Source of the DNA: an alpha proteobacterium BAL199
GTDB lineage: Bacteria > Pseudomonadota > Alphaproteobacteria > Thalassobaculales > Thalassobaculaceae
Assembly (NCBI GenBank): GCA_000171835.1
Contig: ABHC01000024.1
Coordinates: 1-64,000, forward strand
Direction of reading: 5' to 3'
Length of the DNA stretch: 64,000 nucleotides
Shown: piece after piece, positions 24,183 through 35,594 of the stretch
Layout: every line of letters starts with the position of its first letter
Numbering within the stretch: position 1 is the stretch's first letter
Notes under the pieces: model-generated
What the model saw: only the letters and a program-made list of their open reading frames with translations
Database searches by the model: none
Told to the model about the DNA's origin: nothing
Made by a program: the position numbers and the translations under genes

Positions 24183-24452
24183 GGCACAATCCTCAAAACC
24201 AAGTCAGGCAAAGCCTTTTCTGCTGCTGCTATGACCAACTGGTTCTGGCTGCTTTACAAAGATTTGGGCTTTGAGGGATGTAGCAGCCATAGCGGAAGAC
24301 GTAGTGCGATTACACGATGGGCAAGGAACATCACAGCAGCGGGTGGGTCATTGCGGGATGTGCAGCAGCTCGCACGGCATAGCAGCTTGCAAATGACACA
24401 GAAATACATTGAAGTCAGTGAAGGTGCGATGAAACGAGTGGTTGGCAGATGA
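24183..24452 (+). pseudogene. Tyrosine recombinase (integrase) C-terminal fragment
   Basis: The open frame enters from the junction (GTILKTKSGKAF) and continues SHSGRRSAITRWA, VQQLARHSSLQMTQKYIEV. These supply the HxxR, the second His and the nucleophilic Tyr of the phage-integrase family, but the first catalytic Arg and the DNA-binding domain are missing. Codon use and base composition are AT-richer than the surrounding phage. It ends in ATGA overlap with the SEL1 gene. Confidence 0.85.
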
Positions 24453-25317: not shown

Positions 25318-26988
25318 CCGACATTCCCCAAGCGGCGTGCCGACTGACGTGAAGATCGCCTGAATCCGACCTCTGGACAATCGTTTTTTGCCCCAAGCGG
25401 CGTCAGGGGTCGCGCAGGCTGCTGTAACAGGGCGGATCAGACCGGGAAGCCGCTGTGTCCTGGCCCAGGGGCGGTGTTTTTCAGCGCAGTGGATAGACCT
25501 GTCCTGCCGCTTTCGTTCAGTTTGGGTCCGGATCGCGGTCATGCGCATAGCGGTGGCGCTCGCAATCGGCGGATAGCGGCGAGGATGGCGCGCACCATCG
25601 GGCCGGTGACGGCCACCTCGGCCAACTGGAAGGTAATGGCGCGGGCGTGGCGCACGACGCGTGCCCCGATCTTGATCAGCTTGAGCTGCAGGCTGGTTAG
25701 CGACCAGTCGGCCATCGCCTCGGGTAGCTCGATGCAGCGCAGGAAGGTGGCCAGGTTGTAGGCCAGTGCGTGCAACTGCAGCCGCACCTCGTTGTCGCGG
25801 AACTTCCGGCATGACAGCCGCGTCCAGTGAAAGGCATGCTTGCCTTCCTTGATATGCTGCTCGGCGGTGCCGCGGCGATTGTAAAAGCGGGTGATCTCGT
25901 CCGGCTCCATCGGCAGGTTGGTGACGATGAAGCCGACCTTGGGGAACAGTTCGCCCGGATGCCATTCGATCTTGGCGATCACGCGGCGTGGCTTGTCCCA
26001 ACTCTGAGCCTGATACTGGAAGTCCTCGTAGAACCGCTTCACCTTGGTCTTTGACGGCCGCCCAACGGGGCGGGTTAACCGATGAGCGATGCAGCCTTCG
26101 AGAACGGCGTTCTTCTTCATCCGGATGGCGTAGAAATAGCCTGCCCCTTCCAGTCGCTCATAGAGTGCCGGGATCGCATAGGCGGCATCGGCCCGGAAGA
26201 AGCGGCCACCAAGGTTGCGACCAGCGTAGCGGGTGATCACCGGATCAAGGACGTTCCGCCAGCCGTCGGCGCTGTGGACGTTGCCATTGCGCAGGGCGCA
26301 GCGTTCCAGCATGCCGAACTGGTTGAACAAGAAGTTGGGATGATAGCAGTTGCAGTCGAAATGCCCGTTCCACGCCGCTCCTTCCTGATCGCCATGCGTC
26401 GGGCTGACCGAGCTGTCCATGTCCAGCACGATATACTTGAGCCCGTTGCGGTCATGAAACCGGTCAATCCATCGGCCATTCAGGTCGGCCAGCGCCGCCC
26501 GGTTCTCAGGCAAGGCCAGTGTCTCGGTCTCGAACCGCCCCATCTGCGATGCTGAAGCTGCTTGCGCATCGACGGCCCTGCCGCCGACAACCTGACGCAT
26601 CACCGGGTCGAGCGCGAGACGGTCAGCATCGTTCACATCCCCATATCCGGCCAGCCGCCCGAACACCGATTGCCGGAACAGCCCGTCAAGACGATGGACC
26701 GTGTTCCTTCCGATACGATTGTCGCGCAGCGAAGCTGATGCCAGATTGGACAGCCCAAGCGCATCGTCAAGCTCGCGCATCACCAGCAGGCCGCCGTCCG
26801 AACTGATCTGCGTGCCACGAAATTCCAGCCGCACGCGAGGGTCGAAATCCACCCGATCTGCCCGCTGTAATCCCGCACCCTCTGGGTGATCCATGAAATA
26901 CGCCCCTCGCAGCCATCAACACCATGATTTGTATAGGTAATGTTGAGTTCAAGACAGCGAAATCAGCCGGCTACTCGGGGAATGCGGG
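25318..26988 (-). mobile_element. IS1380-family insertion sequence, copy 1 (1,671 bp)
   Basis: Ends are CCGACATTCCCCAAG (left) and, read inward from the right, CCCGCATTCCCCGAG, giving imperfect terminal inverted repeats. ATGAA flanks both ends (25,313-25,317 and 26,989-26,993), consistent with the 4-5 bp duplications of this family. It carries one intact transposase gene. Confidence 0.85.
25539..26894 (-). CDS. IS1380-family transposase
   Basis: 451 aa, full length. The DDE fold is marked by YIVLDMDSSVSPTHGDQEG (first Asp), GGRFFRADAAYAIP (second Asp) and FYNRRGTAEQHIKEGKHAF (Glu region). It has the IS1380 start SSDGGLLVMRELDDALGL. It is clearly diverged from copy 2 but intact, so the element may still move. 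Confidence 0.93.
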   Translation of the reverse strand: MDHPEGAGLQRADRVDFDPRVRLEFRGTQISSDGGLLVMRELDDALGLSNLASASLRDNRIGRNTVHRLDGLFRQSVFGRLAGYGDVNDADRLALDPVMRQVVGGRAVDAQAASASQMGRFETETLALPENRAALADLNGRWIDRFHDRNGLKYIVLDMDSSVSPTHGDQEGAAWNGHFDCNCYHPNFLFNQFGMLERCALRNGNVHSADGWRNVLDPVITRYAGRNLGGRFFRADAAYAIPALYERLEGAGYFYAIRMKKNAVLEGCIAHRLTRPVGRPSKTKVKRFYEDFQYQAQSWDKPRRVIAKIEWHPGELFPKVGFIVTNLPMEPDEITRFYNRRGTAEQHIKEGKHAFHWTRLSCRKFRDNEVRLQLHALAYNLATFLRCIELPEAMADWSLTSLQLKLIKIGARVVRHARAITFQLAEVAVTGPMVRAILAAIRRLRAPPLCA

Positions 26989-28292: not shown

Positions 28293-28961
28293 TCAGGTCT
28301 CCCGGCCGAACCAGCGGATCCTGCCGATGATCTTGATCTCGTCGGCGGTGCGATCGTAGGGCGTGTAGAACGGATTGTCCGAGATGATCCGCACGCATGG
28401 CGGATCGGAGTTCGGGATGTACTCCAGCCGCTTCGCGACGAGCCCCATGCCATCGAAAAGCACGAAGATCCCGGGCGGCGTCGGCAGGGCGCGACCGAGA
28501 TCCACGAGAACCACGTCGCCGTCCTGGAGCGTGGGCATCATGCTGTCGCCCTCGACATGCATGATCCTGAGGTTGGCCGGATTGGCGCGCAGGCGGTGCG
28601 CTATCCACGAACTCTTGAAATGATACGGCTCGCCGCTCTCGACCTCGTTGGCGACGATCGTGCCGCCCCCCATCGACGCGGTGACCTCGACGGATGGAAT
28701 CGAGATAAATTCGTCTGGTTCTTGATGTATCAGCGGCTCGTCGCCCTGGATCTCACCCTTCCCGTGGAGCAGCCAGTTCCGGTCGACCTTCAAGGTCGCG
28801 GCGATCTTGTCGAGCTTTTCCAAGTTCGGGTGCTCGGATCGACCGCGCATGATGTCGTAGACGAAGGACCTGTTGACGCGCGCGTCCTCCGCCACCTCCC
28901 GGGCGTTCATCCCAATCTGCCGGGCACGAGCCCTTAGCCTGTCGGCGAGCGTGGTGAGCAT
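28293..28961 (-). CDS. Prophage repressor, XRE HTH plus S24 peptidase domain
   Basis: 222 aa. An N-terminal helix-turn-helix (NAREVAEDARVNRSFVYDIM) is followed by a linker and the LexA/CI-type autoproteolysis domain. The Ser is in MHVEGDSMMPTL and the Lys in LVAKRLEYIP; a candidate cleavage site lies around VTASMGGG. RecA-triggered self-cleavage would release the lytic genes. It is transcribed leftward from the divergent control region, ahead of nuclease, lipocalin and recD2. The gene is intact, so repression may persist although the phage is defective. Confidence 0.9.
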   Translation of the reverse strand: MLTTLADRLRARARQIGMNAREVAEDARVNRSFVYDIMRGRSEHPNLEKLDKIAATLKVDRNWLLHGKGEIQGDEPLIHQEPDEFISIPSVEVTASMGGGTIVANEVESGEPYHFKSSWIAHRLRANPANLRIMHVEGDSMMPTLQDGDVVLVDLGRALPTPPGIFVLFDGMGLVAKRLEYIPNSDPPCVRIISDNPFYTPYDRTADEIKIIGRIRWFGRET

Positions 28962-29065: not shown

Positions 29066-29755
29066 ATGACGGCCATCGAGAAGGAGTATTTCGCACTCGA
29101 GGAGTTGGAGGAGCGCTGGCAACTGCCTCGGCGCGATCTGGCCTATCTGGCGGAAAACGGTCTTCTGAGGGTGTCGGTGCGGCTTTACGGCGTCCGTATA
29201 GAACGTGGCTCGTACGAGGAGACCGACGACGGCCAATGGTTCCGGATTCCGGAGGAACAGGCTTGGTTTCAAGGCCTGCAGGATCTCCGTCCGCACGACG
29301 TCTACAAACTGTTTCACCAAGGCGAGGTTCGGGTCCAGCATTTCGAGGCGCCCGACGCTGCGTACTGCCACGTTGTCCAACCGGACGAGGGGGTCGTGGT
29401 GAATCGCGACGAACTCGTGGTGCGTCGCGAAGAGCGGGATCGCGCCGAGACCAAGCACGGCCTCGGTGGAACCCCTCGATCATCCACGCGCGGCTTCTCG
29501 CAGCTCAACGACTTCAGCGAGGTCACGCTGGGGGATCGCCTGTATACGCTCGGGCCCATCCAAGGCCGGGTGGTTCAGATCCTCTTTGAGTCCGCAACCG
29601 CTGGATTCCCCTGGCGTCACGGCAAATCGGTCCTGGCGGAAGCGGGGTCGTCCTGTACCCGCATGGCTGACCTCTTCAAGGCCCAGCCGGACTGGCGGAC
29701 GCTCATTCAATCCGATCGGCGCGGCCGCTACCGGCTCAACATCAAATTTTCCTGA
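29066..29755 (+). CDS. Putative phage early regulator, 229 aa
   Basis: First gene of the rightward early operon. Residues 5-40 look like an excisionase- or MerR-like helix-turn-helix (FALEELEERWQLPRRDLAYL, then AENGLLRVSVRL). The C-terminal ~90 residues (DRLYTLGPIQGRVVQILFES, HGKSVLAEAGSSCTRMADLF) look like a winged helix. I do not recognise the family. By position it could be an anti-repressor or early activator. The protein is highly charged and has no signal peptide or membrane segment. Confidence 0.55.
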   Translation: MTAIEKEYFALEELEERWQLPRRDLAYLAENGLLRVSVRLYGVRIERGSYEETDDGQWFRIPEEQAWFQGLQDLRPHDVYKLFHQGEVRVQHFEAPDAAYCHVVQPDEGVVVNRDELVVRREERDRAETKHGLGGTPRSSTRGFSQLNDFSEVTLGDRLYTLGPIQGRVVQILFESATAGFPWRHGKSVLAEAGSSCTRMADLFKAQPDWRTLIQSDRRGRYRLNIKFS

Positions 29756-29881
29756 TCCCCCCGCGAAAGTCAGGTTCGCCGCGGCCTTGACGCGCTTGGA
29801 CCTGGGCTGATCCCCCGCCATCCCCCTGCAGATCCCCTTCTATCCTCCTGATTTGTCCAAATTGATCCCCCGACGATCCCC
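29754..29881 (+). repeat. Phased GATCCCC repeats (iteron/operator array)
   Basis: GATCCCC occurs at 29,754, 29,809, 29,831, 29,864 and 29,875, with a CATCCCCC variant at 29,819. Distances between ATC cores are 55, 10, 12, 33 and 11 bases, near multiples of 11, so the copies lie on one face of the helix. The array sits between the 229-aa regulator and the HTH gene. It could be the operator for either protein or a replication origin. Confidence 0.6.
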
Positions 29882-29947
29882 ACGACGGATCGCCGATGGA
29901 TCTGCATCTTCTCCGCAGGTTTTCGACAAGAACCCAAGGAGACACAG

Positions 29948-30157
29948 ATGGCTACGAAACATCTCAACCAGATCGACCTGGCTGCGCGCTGGAACATCAG
30001 CCACCGCACGCTTGAGCGGTGGCGCTGGACGGGCGAAGGCCCGCGCTTCGTCAAACTCGGCGGTCGGGTCGTGTACCGCCTCGAAGACGTCGAGGAGTAC
30101 GAGCGCGAGCAGATCCGCGCGAGCACCGCCGACACCCCTGCCAAGCCTGTGGCGTGA
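29948..30157 (+). CDS. Excisionase/AlpA-like helix-turn-helix protein
   Basis: 69 aa. LNQIDLAARWNISHRTLERW followed by GPRFVKLGGRVVYRLEDVEEYE is the classic MerR-like excisionase fold. Such proteins bend DNA in excision or act as small activators. AAGGAG stands six bases before the ATG. It directly follows the GATCCCC repeat array, which it might bind. Confidence 0.8.
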   Translation: MATKHLNQIDLAARWNISHRTLERWRWTGEGPRFVKLGGRVVYRLEDVEEYEREQIRASTADTPAKPVA

Positions 30158-30167
30158 GGGGACGGCA

Positions 30168-30650
30168 ATGACGACCTCCAACCGTATCCGCCTCGATGAT
30201 CTCCGGCGCATGGCTGTCGGTGATATCGCCGCTCTGCCCGCCGATCAGTTGGCTCTCCTGCAGGACGAAGCCGACGAGACCCTGCGCCAGGCCAAGACGA
30301 CCTGCGACTGGCTCGATGGCGCTGTCGCCCTCAAATACGCCGATCGTGCCCAGGCCGTCCGTCAGGCCGCGGATAAGGACACCGGGACCATCCGCTTCGA
30401 CGATGGCGCTGTCACCGTGATCGCCGACCTGCCGAAGCGCGTCGATTGGGACCAGCAGAAGCTTGCCGCCCTGATCGAGCGCATCCGGGCCGAGGGCGAC
30501 GACCCCGACGAGTACGTCGACGTCGCGATCAAGGTGCCGGAGCGGAAGTACACCGCCTGGCCCGGGCATATCCGCGAAGCGTTCGAACCAGCGCGAACGG
30601 TGCGCGCGGGCAAGCCCAGTTTCAAACTCGTTATCCGGAAGGTGGCGTGA
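30168..30650 (+). CDS. Phage early protein of unknown function, 160 aa
   Basis: Start at ATG 30,168, ten bases after the HTH stop. A helical N-terminal half (LDDLRRMAVGDIAALPADQL, LLQDEADETLRQAKTTCDWL) is joined to an alpha/beta C-terminal half (AVTVIADLPKRVDWDQQKLA, VKVPERKY-like segment). It overlaps the Sak4-like gene by one base (TGATG). It commonly precedes Sak4-type recombinases in related phages, so it is probably an accessory recombination protein. Confidence 0.55.
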   Translation: MTTSNRIRLDDLRRMAVGDIAALPADQLALLQDEADETLRQAKTTCDWLDGAVALKYADRAQAVRQAADKDTGTIRFDDGAVTVIADLPKRVDWDQQKLAALIERIRAEGDDPDEYVDVAIKVPERKYTAWPGHIREAFEPARTVRAGKPSFKLVIRKVA

Positions 30651-31396
30651 TGGCCATTTCGCTCGCATCCCTGCGCACCGCAAACGCGCTGCGCCCGCCG
30701 AGGGTGCTGATCCATGGCGTCGCAGGCATTGGCAAGACTACCTTCGCGGCCGGTGCCGACGCCCCCGTATTCATCATGCCCGAGGATGGCCTCGGCACCC
30801 TCCAGGTCCCGCATTTTCCGCTGGCCGGCAGCTTCGTCGAGGTGTCCGAGGCACTCGATGCTCTGCTGAACGAGGAGCACCCCTACCGGACGGTGGTGGT
30901 CGACAGCGTCGACTGGCTCGAGCCGCTGATCTGGGCCGAGACCGCCAGGCGCAACGGCTGGCCGTCGATCGAGTCGCCGGGCTACGGCAAGGGCTATGCC
31001 GAGGCGCTGAACGTCTGGCGTGAGTACATCGACAAGCTCAACGCGCTTCGTGACCGCAAGGGTATGGCGGTCGTTCAGATCGCCCACACCGACATCAAGC
31101 GCTTCGACAGCCCGGAGCACGAGCCCTACGACCGGTATGTGATCAAGCTCCAGCCGCGTGCCGCAGCGCTGCTGCAGGAGCATTCCGACGCGGTGCTGTT
31201 CGCGAACTATCGGCTGTCGATCGCCAAGGCGGATGTCGGCTTCAACAAGAAGGTGGCCCGCGCGCTCGGGGCCGGCGAGCGCGTCATGCACACCGCCGAG
31301 CGCCCGGCCTTCCTTGCCAAGAACCGTTACGGCCTGCCCGACACCCTTCCGCTCGATTGGAAGGCCTTCGTCGAGGCGATGCCGCAGCCCGAATGA
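30650..31396 (+). CDS. Sak4-like phage recombinase (RecA-fold ATPase)
   Basis: 248 aa. A RecA-type core with Walker A (VLIHGVAGIGKTTFAAG), Walker B (YRTVVVDSVDWLEPLI) and the conserved VVQIAHTDIKRFDSPEHEPYDR segment. Sak4 proteins are single-domain RecA-like annealing recombinases that repair or recombine phage DNA with help from an SSB-like partner, here the following DUF669 protein. It is intact and lies in the rightward early operon. Confidence 0.8.
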   Translation: MAISLASLRTANALRPPRVLIHGVAGIGKTTFAAGADAPVFIMPEDGLGTLQVPHFPLAGSFVEVSEALDALLNEEHPYRTVVVDSVDWLEPLIWAETARRNGWPSIESPGYGKGYAEALNVWREYIDKLNALRDRKGMAVVQIAHTDIKRFDSPEHEPYDRYVIKLQPRAAALLQEHSDAVLFANYRLSIAKADVGFNKKVARALGAGERVMHTAERPAFLAKNRYGLPDTLPLDWKAFVEAMPQPE

Positions 31397-31420: not shown

Positions 31421-31954
31421 ATGGCACGTTTCGACACCGCCTTTGACGCCTCGGGGGTCGAGCCCACCGCCGCCCACGAGGTGCTGCCGGCCGGCAAGTA
31501 CCGCGCGCAGATCGTCGAGAGCGAAATGCGCGTCACCCGCAACGGCATGGGCCGATATCTCTGGCTGATGCTGGACATCGTCGAGGGGCAGCACCGGGGC
31601 CGCAAGATCTTCGATCAGCTGAACCTGGTGAATGCCAACCCGACCACGGTGGAAATCGCTCAGCGCACGCTGTCGGCGATCTGCCACGCCACGGGCAAAC
31701 TGCAGGTCAACGACAGCGAGGAACTGCACCTGATCGCGATGACGATCCAGGTCGGCGTGAAGCCTCCAAAGGACGAGTTCGGCGAACGCAACACGATCCG
31801 CTACCTCGTGCCGGATCCTGCGGGCCAGACGGGCCCCGCGACGTCGAGCCCCGCAACATCGAGCCCGGTGCAGTCGAGTCCAATGCAGTCGAGCCCGGCG
31901 GCACGGCCCGCCGCGATCAAGCCGGCCACTGCGCCCTGGAACCGCAAGAGCTGA
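31421..31954 (+). CDS. DUF669 protein (phage SSB-like partner)
   Basis: 177 aa. The DUF669 core reads LPAGKYRAQIVESEMRVTRN, LWLMLDIVEGQHRGRKIFDQ and NPTTVEIAQRTLSAICHATG. The family is thought to bind single-stranded DNA next to Sak-type recombinases. The C-terminal tail is a (T/Q)SSP repeat produced by four 15-base units, then ends PWNRKS. The tail is probably disordered and may be hypervariable in length. Confidence 0.82.
   Translation: MARFDTAFDASGVEPTAAHEVLPAGKYRAQIVESEMRVTRNGMGRYLWLMLDIVEGQHRGRKIFDQLNLVNANPTTVEIAQRTLSAICHATGKLQVNDSEELHLIAMTIQVGVKPPKDEFGERNTIRYLVPDPAGQTGPATSSPATSSPVQSSPMQSSPAARPAAIKPATAPWNRKS
31838..31897 (+). repeat. Four tandem 15-bp repeats inside the DUF669 gene
   Basis: Four consecutive 15-base units share the core TCGAGCCC/TCGAGTCC and encode the SSP-containing tail. 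Being in frame, copy-number changes would only lengthen or shorten the tail. Confidence 0.75.
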
Positions 31955-33926: not shown

Positions 33927-35594
33927 CCCGCATTCCCCAAGTAATCCGGTGATTTAGCTGTCGTGGACATGGTATTTCTGATACAAATCATGGTGTTGAT
34001 TGCTGCGAGGGACGGGTTTCATGGATCACCCATCGGGTGCGGGTTCGCAGCGGGCAGATCGGGTGGATTTCGACCCTCGTGTTCGGCTGGAATTCAAGGG
34101 CGCGCTGCTGAGTTCGGACGGCGGTCTTTTGGTGATGCGCGAGATGGATGACGCGCTCGGGCTGTCCGCTCTGGCGTCAGCGGCGCTGTGCGACACCCGC
34201 CGAGGCAAAAACACCGTCCACCGGCTCGACGGGCTATTCCGGCAGTCAGTGTTCGGTCGTCTGGCCGGATATGAAGATGTAAACGATGCCGACCGTCTCG
34301 CCCTCGATCCGGTCATGCGCCAGGTCGTGGGCGGCAGGACTGTCGATGCGCAGGCGGCCTCGGCCTCGCAGATGGGGCGGTTCGAGACGGAGACGCTGGC
34401 CTTGGCCGAGAACCGGGCGGCGCTGGCCGACTTGAACGGGCAATGGATCGACCGGTTTCATGATCGCAACGGGCTGAAGTTCATCGTGCTGGACATGGAC
34501 AGCTCGGTCAGCCCAACCCATGGCAATCAGGAAGGGTCCGCCTGGAACGGGCACTTTGACTGCACCTGCTACCACCCGAACTTCTTGTTCAACCAGTTCG
34601 GCATGCTGGAACGCTGCGCCCTGCGCCACGGCAACGTCCACAGCGCCGACGGCTGGCGGGACGTGCTCGACCCGGTGATCGCTCGCTATGCCAAACGTGA
34701 CATCCTGCGGTTCTTCCGTGCTGACGCCGCCTACGCGATACCGGCAATCTATGTGCGGCTGGAAGAAGCAGGCTATTTCTATGCCATCCGGCTGCCCGCC
34801 AACAACGTCCTGCGTGAGAAGATCGCGCACCGGCTGACGCGGCCCGTGGGGCGGCCGTCGCTGACCAAGGTCAAGCGGTACTTCGTCGATTTCGACTATC
34901 AGGCGGCGTCTTGGGACAAGGAACGCCGTGTGATCGCCAAGATCGAATGGCACCCGGGCAAGCTGTTCCCCCGCGTGGGTTTCATCGTCACCAACTTGCC
35001 GATGGAGCCGGATTGGGTGATGGGCTTCTATAACCAGCGCGGCACCGCCGAGCAGCACATCAAGGAAGGTAAATACGCCTTCCATTGGACGCGGCTGTCG
35101 TGCCGGAAGTTCCGCGATAACGAGGTGCGGCTGCAATTGCATGCACTGGCCTACAATCTGGCAACCTTCCTGCGCTGTATCGAACTGCCCGAGGCCATGG
35201 CGGACTGGTCATTGACCAGCCTGCAACTCAAGCTGATCAAGATCGGCGCCCGCGTCGTGCGTCACGCTCGCGCCATCACCTTCCAACTGGCCGAGGTAGC
35301 CGTCACCGGCCCGATGGTCCGCGCCATCCTCGCCGTGATCCGCCGCCTTCGAGAGCCACCGCTATGCGCGTGACCGAGGTCCAGGCCAAAACTGAACGAA
35401 AGCGGCAGGACAAGTCTGCCCGATGCGCTGAAAAACGTCGCCGCCGGGCCGGGATGCTGCGGGTTTACGGGCCGATTCGCCCAACTTCGGGCGTTTGCGC
35501 GACCACAGACCCCGCGCGGGGCGGAAAACGCTTGATCCGCTGGCGCAGTCAGGCGATCTTGACGTCAGAAGGCACGCCGCTTGGGGAATGTCGG
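33927..35594 (+). mobile_element. IS1380-family insertion sequence, copy 2 (1,668 bp)
   Basis: Left end CCCGCATTCCCCAAG; right end, read inward, CCGACATTCCCCAAG. Same ends as copy 1 but opposite orientation and clearly diverged in sequence. Flanking pentamers differ (TTTAG left, CTTCA right), so there is no target duplication. The left flank is prophage and the right flank is the TPR gene leader. This points to an IS-adjacent deletion that removed the prophage right arm. Confidence 0.85.
34021..35373 (+). CDS. IS1380-family transposase, copy 2
   Basis: 450 aa, starting MDHPSGAGSQRADRVDFDPR. The catalytic regions are kept (FIVLDMDSSVSPTHG, FFRADAAYAIP, FYNQRGTAEQHIKEGK). It differs from copy 1 at many positions, mainly in the middle third (PANNVLREKIAHRL against KKNAVLEGCIAHRL). 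It is intact. Confidence 0.93.
   Translation: MDHPSGAGSQRADRVDFDPRVRLEFKGALLSSDGGLLVMREMDDALGLSALASAALCDTRRGKNTVHRLDGLFRQSVFGRLAGYEDVNDADRLALDPVMRQVVGGRTVDAQAASASQMGRFETETLALAENRAALADLNGQWIDRFHDRNGLKFIVLDMDSSVSPTHGNQEGSAWNGHFDCTCYHPNFLFNQFGMLERCALRHGNVHSADGWRDVLDPVIARYAKRDILRFFRADAAYAIPAIYVRLEEAGYFYAIRLPANNVLREKIAHRLTRPVGRPSLTKVKRYFVDFDYQAASWDKERRVIAKIEWHPGKLFPRVGFIVTNLPMEPDWVMGFYNQRGTAEQHIKEGKYAFHWTRLSCRKFRDNEVRLQLHALAYNLATFLRCIELPEAMADWSLTSLQLKLIKIGARVVRHARAITFQLAEVAVTGPMVRAILAVIRRLREPPLCA

Follow-up and report, generated by a model that had tools for sequence, protein, structure and literature searches.

A helically phased array of GATCCCC words lies in the early region of a prophage of the alphaproteobacterium BAL199, and this array is real and strongly conserved. 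In the reading that we favor, to which we assign a probability of about 0.64, the array acts as a cooperative operator, i.e., an upstream activating sequence, for the promoter of a replication/recombination operon; the C-terminal winged helix of a 229-aa protein would bind it and activate the operon. We infer the identity of the binder (the 229-aa protein), its OmpR/PhoB-like fold, its control by CI and its activating effect; an activating role of the array is probable.

Genetic context of the array

The window (the whole 64-kb stretch of DNA that was analyzed) contains the following genes around the array: (i) a CI-type repressor gene (28293-28961, minus strand), whose product combines an HTH with a Pfam Peptidase_S24 match (1.1e-12) and matches a PHROG transcriptional repressor (1.4e-42); (ii) divergent to it, the gene of the 229-aa regulator ("gene A"; 29066-29755, plus strand), the proposed array-binding protein, which belongs to no named family; (iii) a gene for a 69-aa HTH_17 excisionase-like protein (29948-30157, plus strand), which opens the replication/recombination operon; and, further along this operon on the plus strand, genes encoding (iv) a phrog_2480 protein (30168-30650), second in the operon in the window copy, (v) a Sak4-like AAA_24 ATPase (30650-31396) and (vi) an SSB-like DUF669 protein (31421-31954). 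The original prediction that the gene next to the array encodes an excisionase-like HTH protein was borne out by Pfam (HTH_17, 5.7e-9) and PHROG (excisionase, 1.7e-8) matches of the 69-aa product.

Three prophage-like copies of this region occur in the same genome: C46, which is the copy of the window, C28 and C50. Homologs of the helicase and exonuclease genes of related prophages were not found within the window, whereas the C28 copy has both, and the window copy therefore looks like a prophage remnant. The early region is bracketed by a pair of oppositely oriented transposase genes that belong to a single family, DDE_Tnp_1_4 (25539-26894, minus strand, and 34000-35373, plus strand). A C-terminal fragment of a tyrosine integrase is encoded at 24231-24452 (Phage_integrase match, under the curated cut-off).

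Structure of the GATCCCC array

Within the array, GATCCCC occurs on the plus strand at five positions, starting at 29754, 29809, 29831, 29864 and 29875, with CATCCCCC (29819-29826, box 2) as the sixth member. The start-to-start steps of the common ATCCC are 55, 10, 12, 33, and 11 bp; both the words and the spacings had been predicted exactly. Box 0 (GATCCCC; 29754-29760) shares bases with the stop codon of the 229-aa gene; it lies 55 bp, or five helical turns, upstream of the core array, which comprises box 1 (GATCCCCC; 29809-29816), box 2, box 3 (GATCCCCT; 29831-29838), box 4 (GATCCCCC; 29864-29871), placed three turns past box 3, and box 5 (GATCCCCA; 29875-29882), which abuts a -35-like element. 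All of these are on the plus strand. Two degenerate members had been overlooked earlier: TATCCTCC (29841-29848, plus strand), which reads TATCCCCC in the C50 copy, and GTCC at 29855. The boxes from 29809 to 29881 and their spacing are retained in all three copies in the genome, among which conservation is lowest in the interval that separates the stop codon from the array; box 0 is degenerate in one of the three (GATCCTCC in C50).

GATCCCC is not over-represented in the window as a whole (16 copies observed, 18 expected), and no further phased cluster was found elsewhere within it. In 400 versions of the window simulated with a first-order Markov model, five same-strand GATCCCC words never fell within 128 bp (0/400; the largest simulated cluster held three), and the six ATCCCC words of the array exceed the simulated maximum of four. 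A chance cluster in a GC-rich genome, which could be proposed given that the word is not rare in the window, is for practical purposes ruled out by these simulations together with the conservation and phasing of the array in dozens of relatives. An apparent second array of GATCCCCC words in C54 of the same genome was rejected, as it proved to be a 16-bp tandem repeat beside unrelated genes. This repeat (L013, 1501-1536; G000:C54:91881-91916) contains three GATCCCC words and has unrelated genes on either side.

Conservation and helical phasing in related prophages

Related loci were identified by alignment-based searches of viral contigs and genomes, which yielded dozens of loci, including those of Mesorhizobium, Brucella, Pannonibacter, Rhizobium, Devosia, Sulfitobacter and Ruegeria; a single-protein query against genome contigs gave no match, whereas the alignment query did find loci. 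We inspected approximately 90 distinct gaps flanked by the 229-aa and 69-aa genes, nearly all of which carry an (A/G)TCCC array. In some 40 dissimilar gaps, flanked by the same two genes, the array occupies the equivalent place, with identity of the 229-aa protein falling to as little as 43%. A second phased array was not found in the flanks of the relatives, a single array being found per locus.

The spacing of the boxes was compared in 43 dissimilar gaps. Distances between same-strand boxes cluster at 10-12, 21-24, 31-34, 43-46, 53-57, and 64-69 bp, with almost none elsewhere, and the phase coherence is 0.79, with a peak period of 11.0-11.25 bp. The predicted spacing near multiples of the helical repeat is thus confirmed, as a phase of about 11 bp; relatives keeping both flanking genes were examined for loss of the array or random spacing, and array and phase were found to be retained. 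Box columns are more conserved than the columns between boxes in six of six clades (p<0.002 in four of them), a comparison slightly biased by the setting of boxes on one reference sequence per clade.

Several details of the layout are also maintained. Box 0 persists in the majority of closer relatives irrespective of which stop codon it overlaps (TGA-TCCCC, TAA-ATCCCC, or TAG-GTCCCC), and in most of them it precedes the next box by 55-57 bp, i.e., five turns. The left and right halves of the array remain separated by a 33-bp step in many relatives, several of which, e.g., Shinella, have no intervening box. In Rhodobacterales prophages, the left half of the array is inverted (two to four GGGGAT boxes at 10-12-bp steps), while the right half is direct and the phase is kept. 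The single orientation claimed for the boxes therefore holds for the window, where all are on the plus strand, but not for these relatives.

The inverted boxes, still in phase, fit a binder of double-stranded DNA rather than an RNA signal. They bear on the proposal that the array is a rut site for Rho, i.e., a C-rich RNA with YC dimers every ~11 nt, analogous to lambda tR1. Such a site would suit both the C-rich coding strand of the window (C far exceeds G; GC skew -0.31 to -0.38) and the tR1-like location, past the first rightward gene and ahead of the second. However, in Rhodobacterales the inverted boxes would give a G-rich RNA, and the rut site, a highly improbable explanation, was rejected for this reason.

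Promoter-like element and leader

The array leads into a conserved motif, ACGAC(A/G)-17/18-CANNNT, which directly follows the last box in 26 of 30 dissimilar gaps, usually in the form CATNNT and in a few cases CAANNT. In the window, it consists of ACGACG (29882-29887, plus strand) and CATCTT (29905-29910, plus strand). We read ACGACR-17/18-CATNNT as a putative weak -35/-10 pair serving the operon headed by the 69-aa HTH gene; given its conservation, ACGAC could also belong to the operator. Downstream of the -10-like element, the leader (29911-29965) is predicted to fold at -14.6 kcal/mol (z -2.8), with a hairpin (29911-29941, plus strand) pairing the GGAG ribosome-binding site of the 69-aa gene. 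Leader hairpins of similar layout and different sequence, which pair the SD, are present in three other loci (L024, L074, and L045), and these hairpins suggest translation control of the 69-aa gene.

The position of the boxes relative to this motif also bears on the sign of the regulation. The same operator and binder could act in the opposite direction, with the 229-aa protein repressing the replication operon in a Cro-like manner or as autoregulatory damping. Two observations are compatible with repression: in Rhodobacterales prophages, one box falls between -35 and -10 and so overlaps the spacer, and Apl of phage 186, a phage regulator with a similar style of binding, represses early promoters (PMC7498355). 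Nevertheless, most boxes lie upstream of -35, and ACGACR/CATNNT is far from consensus, as is typical for activator-dependent promoters. We consider repression unlikely, though it is the strongest of the competing explanations. Activation after loss of CI is favored because OmpR/PhoB-type domains bind repeats 11 bp apart and SARPs with the same spacing rescue weak promoters.

Exchange of regulator-array cassettes

Nearly identical 69-aa proteins (up to 99%), together with their leader, were found behind different arrays. One such pair is L041 and L156, in which the DNA shows 98.8% identity for 743 bp, starting at position -43, while the regulators and arrays differ; the window and L128 are likewise 87.9% identical over 719 bp from 29905, the first position of the -10-like element. 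In most comparisons between prophages with the 229-aa protein and those with another regulator and array, the alignment starts 43-48 bp before the start codon, i.e., at -10, and no similarity was found just upstream of this joint. This onset of identity indicates that the regulator and array form one exchangeable cassette, and the -10 element, leader and replication operon the other. In the relatives checked, the 229-aa gene is found together with CI homologs (60-82% identical), and no homolog of the window CI was found near alternative regulator genes in the loci checked. As CI belongs to the same cassette, exchange of cassettes does not by itself separate CI from the 229-aa protein as the binder.

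Two other regulator families occupy the position of the 229-aa protein. The first, of 312-330 aa (312-type), replaces it in L128, L153, L156, L165, L173 and relatives, and has no Pfam, NCBIfam, PADLOC or PHROG match. The gaps following 312-type genes have phased C-rich arrays of their own (TCCTCCC, CCTACC, TTCCCCC), the clear cases showing four boxes at 10-13-bp steps. A terminator separates regulator and array in 26 of 33 of these gaps, vs. about 4 of 31 gaps of the 229-aa type, and the idea of a terminator as a constant feature before the array was consequently dropped. The second is a QatC-like family (620 aa), present in L144, L141, L145, L163, L164, L169, L175 and L198, where its gene is followed by GTCACA repeats and the leader sequence differs as well. 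The protein is a defense-type QueC relative with an extra C-terminal domain giving HTH-like matches, and comparison of this C-terminus with that of the 229-aa protein did not establish homology; a QatC relative has possibly been put to use here as a phage regulator.

In a decayed relative (L121), the regulator gene is broken and the array is missing, while the leader persists, a single case that agrees with the pairing of regulator and array. N-terminally truncated 229-aa genes, with neither array nor 69-aa gene, were observed in L057, L114, L115, L116, and L126 (Paracoccus genomes and one viral contig). Their context is almost identical, as if spread by a mobile element.

The exchange of cassettes is informative about a different candidate binder, the 69-aa protein. 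As a recombination directionality factor (RDF), it might form a head-to-tail filament on repeats spaced by one turn, a notion suggested by its HTH_17/excisionase-like assignment and by known RDFs (lambda Xis, P2 Cox, 186 Apl), which bind arrays of five to seven direct repeats, spaced by one helical turn, in the phage early region (PMC7498355). The resemblance extends to the array style and its location. However, near-identical 69-aa proteins, and DNA from -10 onward, stand behind different arrays, and the array travels with the upstream gene: it follows the 229-aa gene, not the excisionase-like gene, and, as far as seen, does not lie at an attachment site. Moreover, the gap sits between regulator and replication operon with no adjoining integrase gene seen; the Shinella locus has a recombinase gene ~3.5 kb away from the gap. 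Since the array fails to follow the excisionase-like gene, excisionase-type binding, for which we see little probability, was set aside.

The original prediction had left a choice between iterons of a replication origin and cooperative operators. An iteron origin with the 229-aa protein as its initiator would account for multiple direct repeats that adjoin a DNA-binding protein gene and evolve with it through cassette exchange, for the single array per locus and for its place at the start of the replication operon. On the other hand, no AT-rich unwinding element was found beside the array, around which GC is 0.53-0.67; the boxes run into, and end at, the promoter-like element; the terminators between 312-type regulators and their arrays fit a transcription start; and the 229-aa protein matched no initiator family. 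With nothing specifically in its favor, the origin is an improbable reading, on a par with the RDF filament or slightly ahead of it, while conserved boxes, the 11-bp phase, the lead into a promoter and cassette exchange all speak for the operator.

The proposed DNA-binding domain of the 229-aa protein

For the 229-aa protein, an AlphaFold2 model (pLDDT 86.7) predicts an N-terminal HTH, a beta middle domain and a C-terminal winged helix (approximately residues 141-229). The protein gave no Pfam (including Trans_reg_C and Response_reg), NCBIfam or PADLOC match. It is homologous to the 312-type regulators only in the C-terminal 84 residues (hhalign probability 97.8, E 7e-13), a domain whose predicted topology is a beta-sheet, three helices and a beta-hairpin. 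As this domain is common to two regulator types with a like style of array, it points to itself as the binder.

In Foldseek searches, the 312-type model showed weak matches to BaeR, PhoP-DNA, HP1043, AfsR, and RpaA; the whole 229-aa model produced nothing convincing against PDB and BFVD, and a direct PDB sequence search returned noise only. With neither a Trans_reg_C match nor a convincing Foldseek match for the 229-aa protein, the assignment is based on the topology and the 312-type model, which suggest an OmpR/PhoB-like winged helix at its C-terminus. Its N-terminus consists of an HTH and a beta domain in place of a receiver domain, and the protein is accordingly not classed as a response regulator, but only as working like one.

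Proposed mode of action and comparison with known systems

The boxes, (A/G)TCCC(CC), stand one turn of ~11 bp or multiples thereof apart, and such steps would align bound monomers on one face of the DNA. According to our model, the 229-aa protein would be made once the CI-type repressor is inactivated, and would then fill the array cooperatively, its C-terminal winged helix contacting the boxes in the head-to-tail manner of OmpR/PhoB-type domains. With the array filled, RNA polymerase would be drawn to the weak promoter, ACGACR-17/18-CATNNT, and the operon would be switched on from the 69-aa HTH gene onward.

In operators of the pho-box type, the boxes lead into -35. Tandem dimers of PhoP occupy 7-bp repeats separated by a 4-bp spacer, and PhoP stacks on three or four repeats (PMC4832192). 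The proposed system shares with the OmpR/PhoB family (PhoB, PhoP, KdpE) the direct repeats ~11 bp apart, the C-terminal winged helix (predicted here), cooperative tandem binding (proposed here) and boxes that reach -35. It differs in the domain architecture given above, in the number of boxes (at least six), part of which are inverted in relatives, and in its prophage location.

SARP activators such as AfsR also have an OmpR-type DNA-binding domain, of the kind predicted here, and act on repeats 11 or 22 bp apart beside weak promoters with suboptimal -10/-35 sequences (PMC10936776). SARPs differ from the 229-aa protein in that they come from actinomycetes and combine a BTA domain with a DNA-binding domain at the N-terminus; they usually use two repeats, and the placement of the repeats relative to -10 is different.

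Mor of phage Mu and CII of lambda are stage-switch activators, made from the early region after inactivation of the repressor and acting on the next operon. The role proposed for the 229-aa protein, an early-made activator of the next operon, is similar, but Mor and CII are unrelated to it and have no such helical array. Our literature searches found no description of an array of the GATCCCC type.

Implications for alphaproteobacterial prophages

The array and its regulator look like a swappable on-switch cassette in many alphaproteobacterial prophages, not like a replication origin. More broadly, and more tentatively (we would put this at somewhat below even odds), the site ahead of the replication operon may be a socket into which different regulator families (the 229-aa protein with CI, the 312-aa protein without such a CI, and the QatC-like protein) bring matching phased or otherwise repeated operators, with recombination exactly at the -10 element as the means of exchange, and with the 229-aa and 312-aa proteins forming a new class of OmpR/PhoB-like phage regulators that switch on replication. 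Natural swap pairs such as L041 and L156 are suited to tests of the co-evolution of regulators and operators. If true, these proposals would provide a function and a target for two widespread, nameless phage protein families, and would account for the way in which alphaproteobacterial prophages keep one common replication operon under control although their immunity regions are interchangeable.
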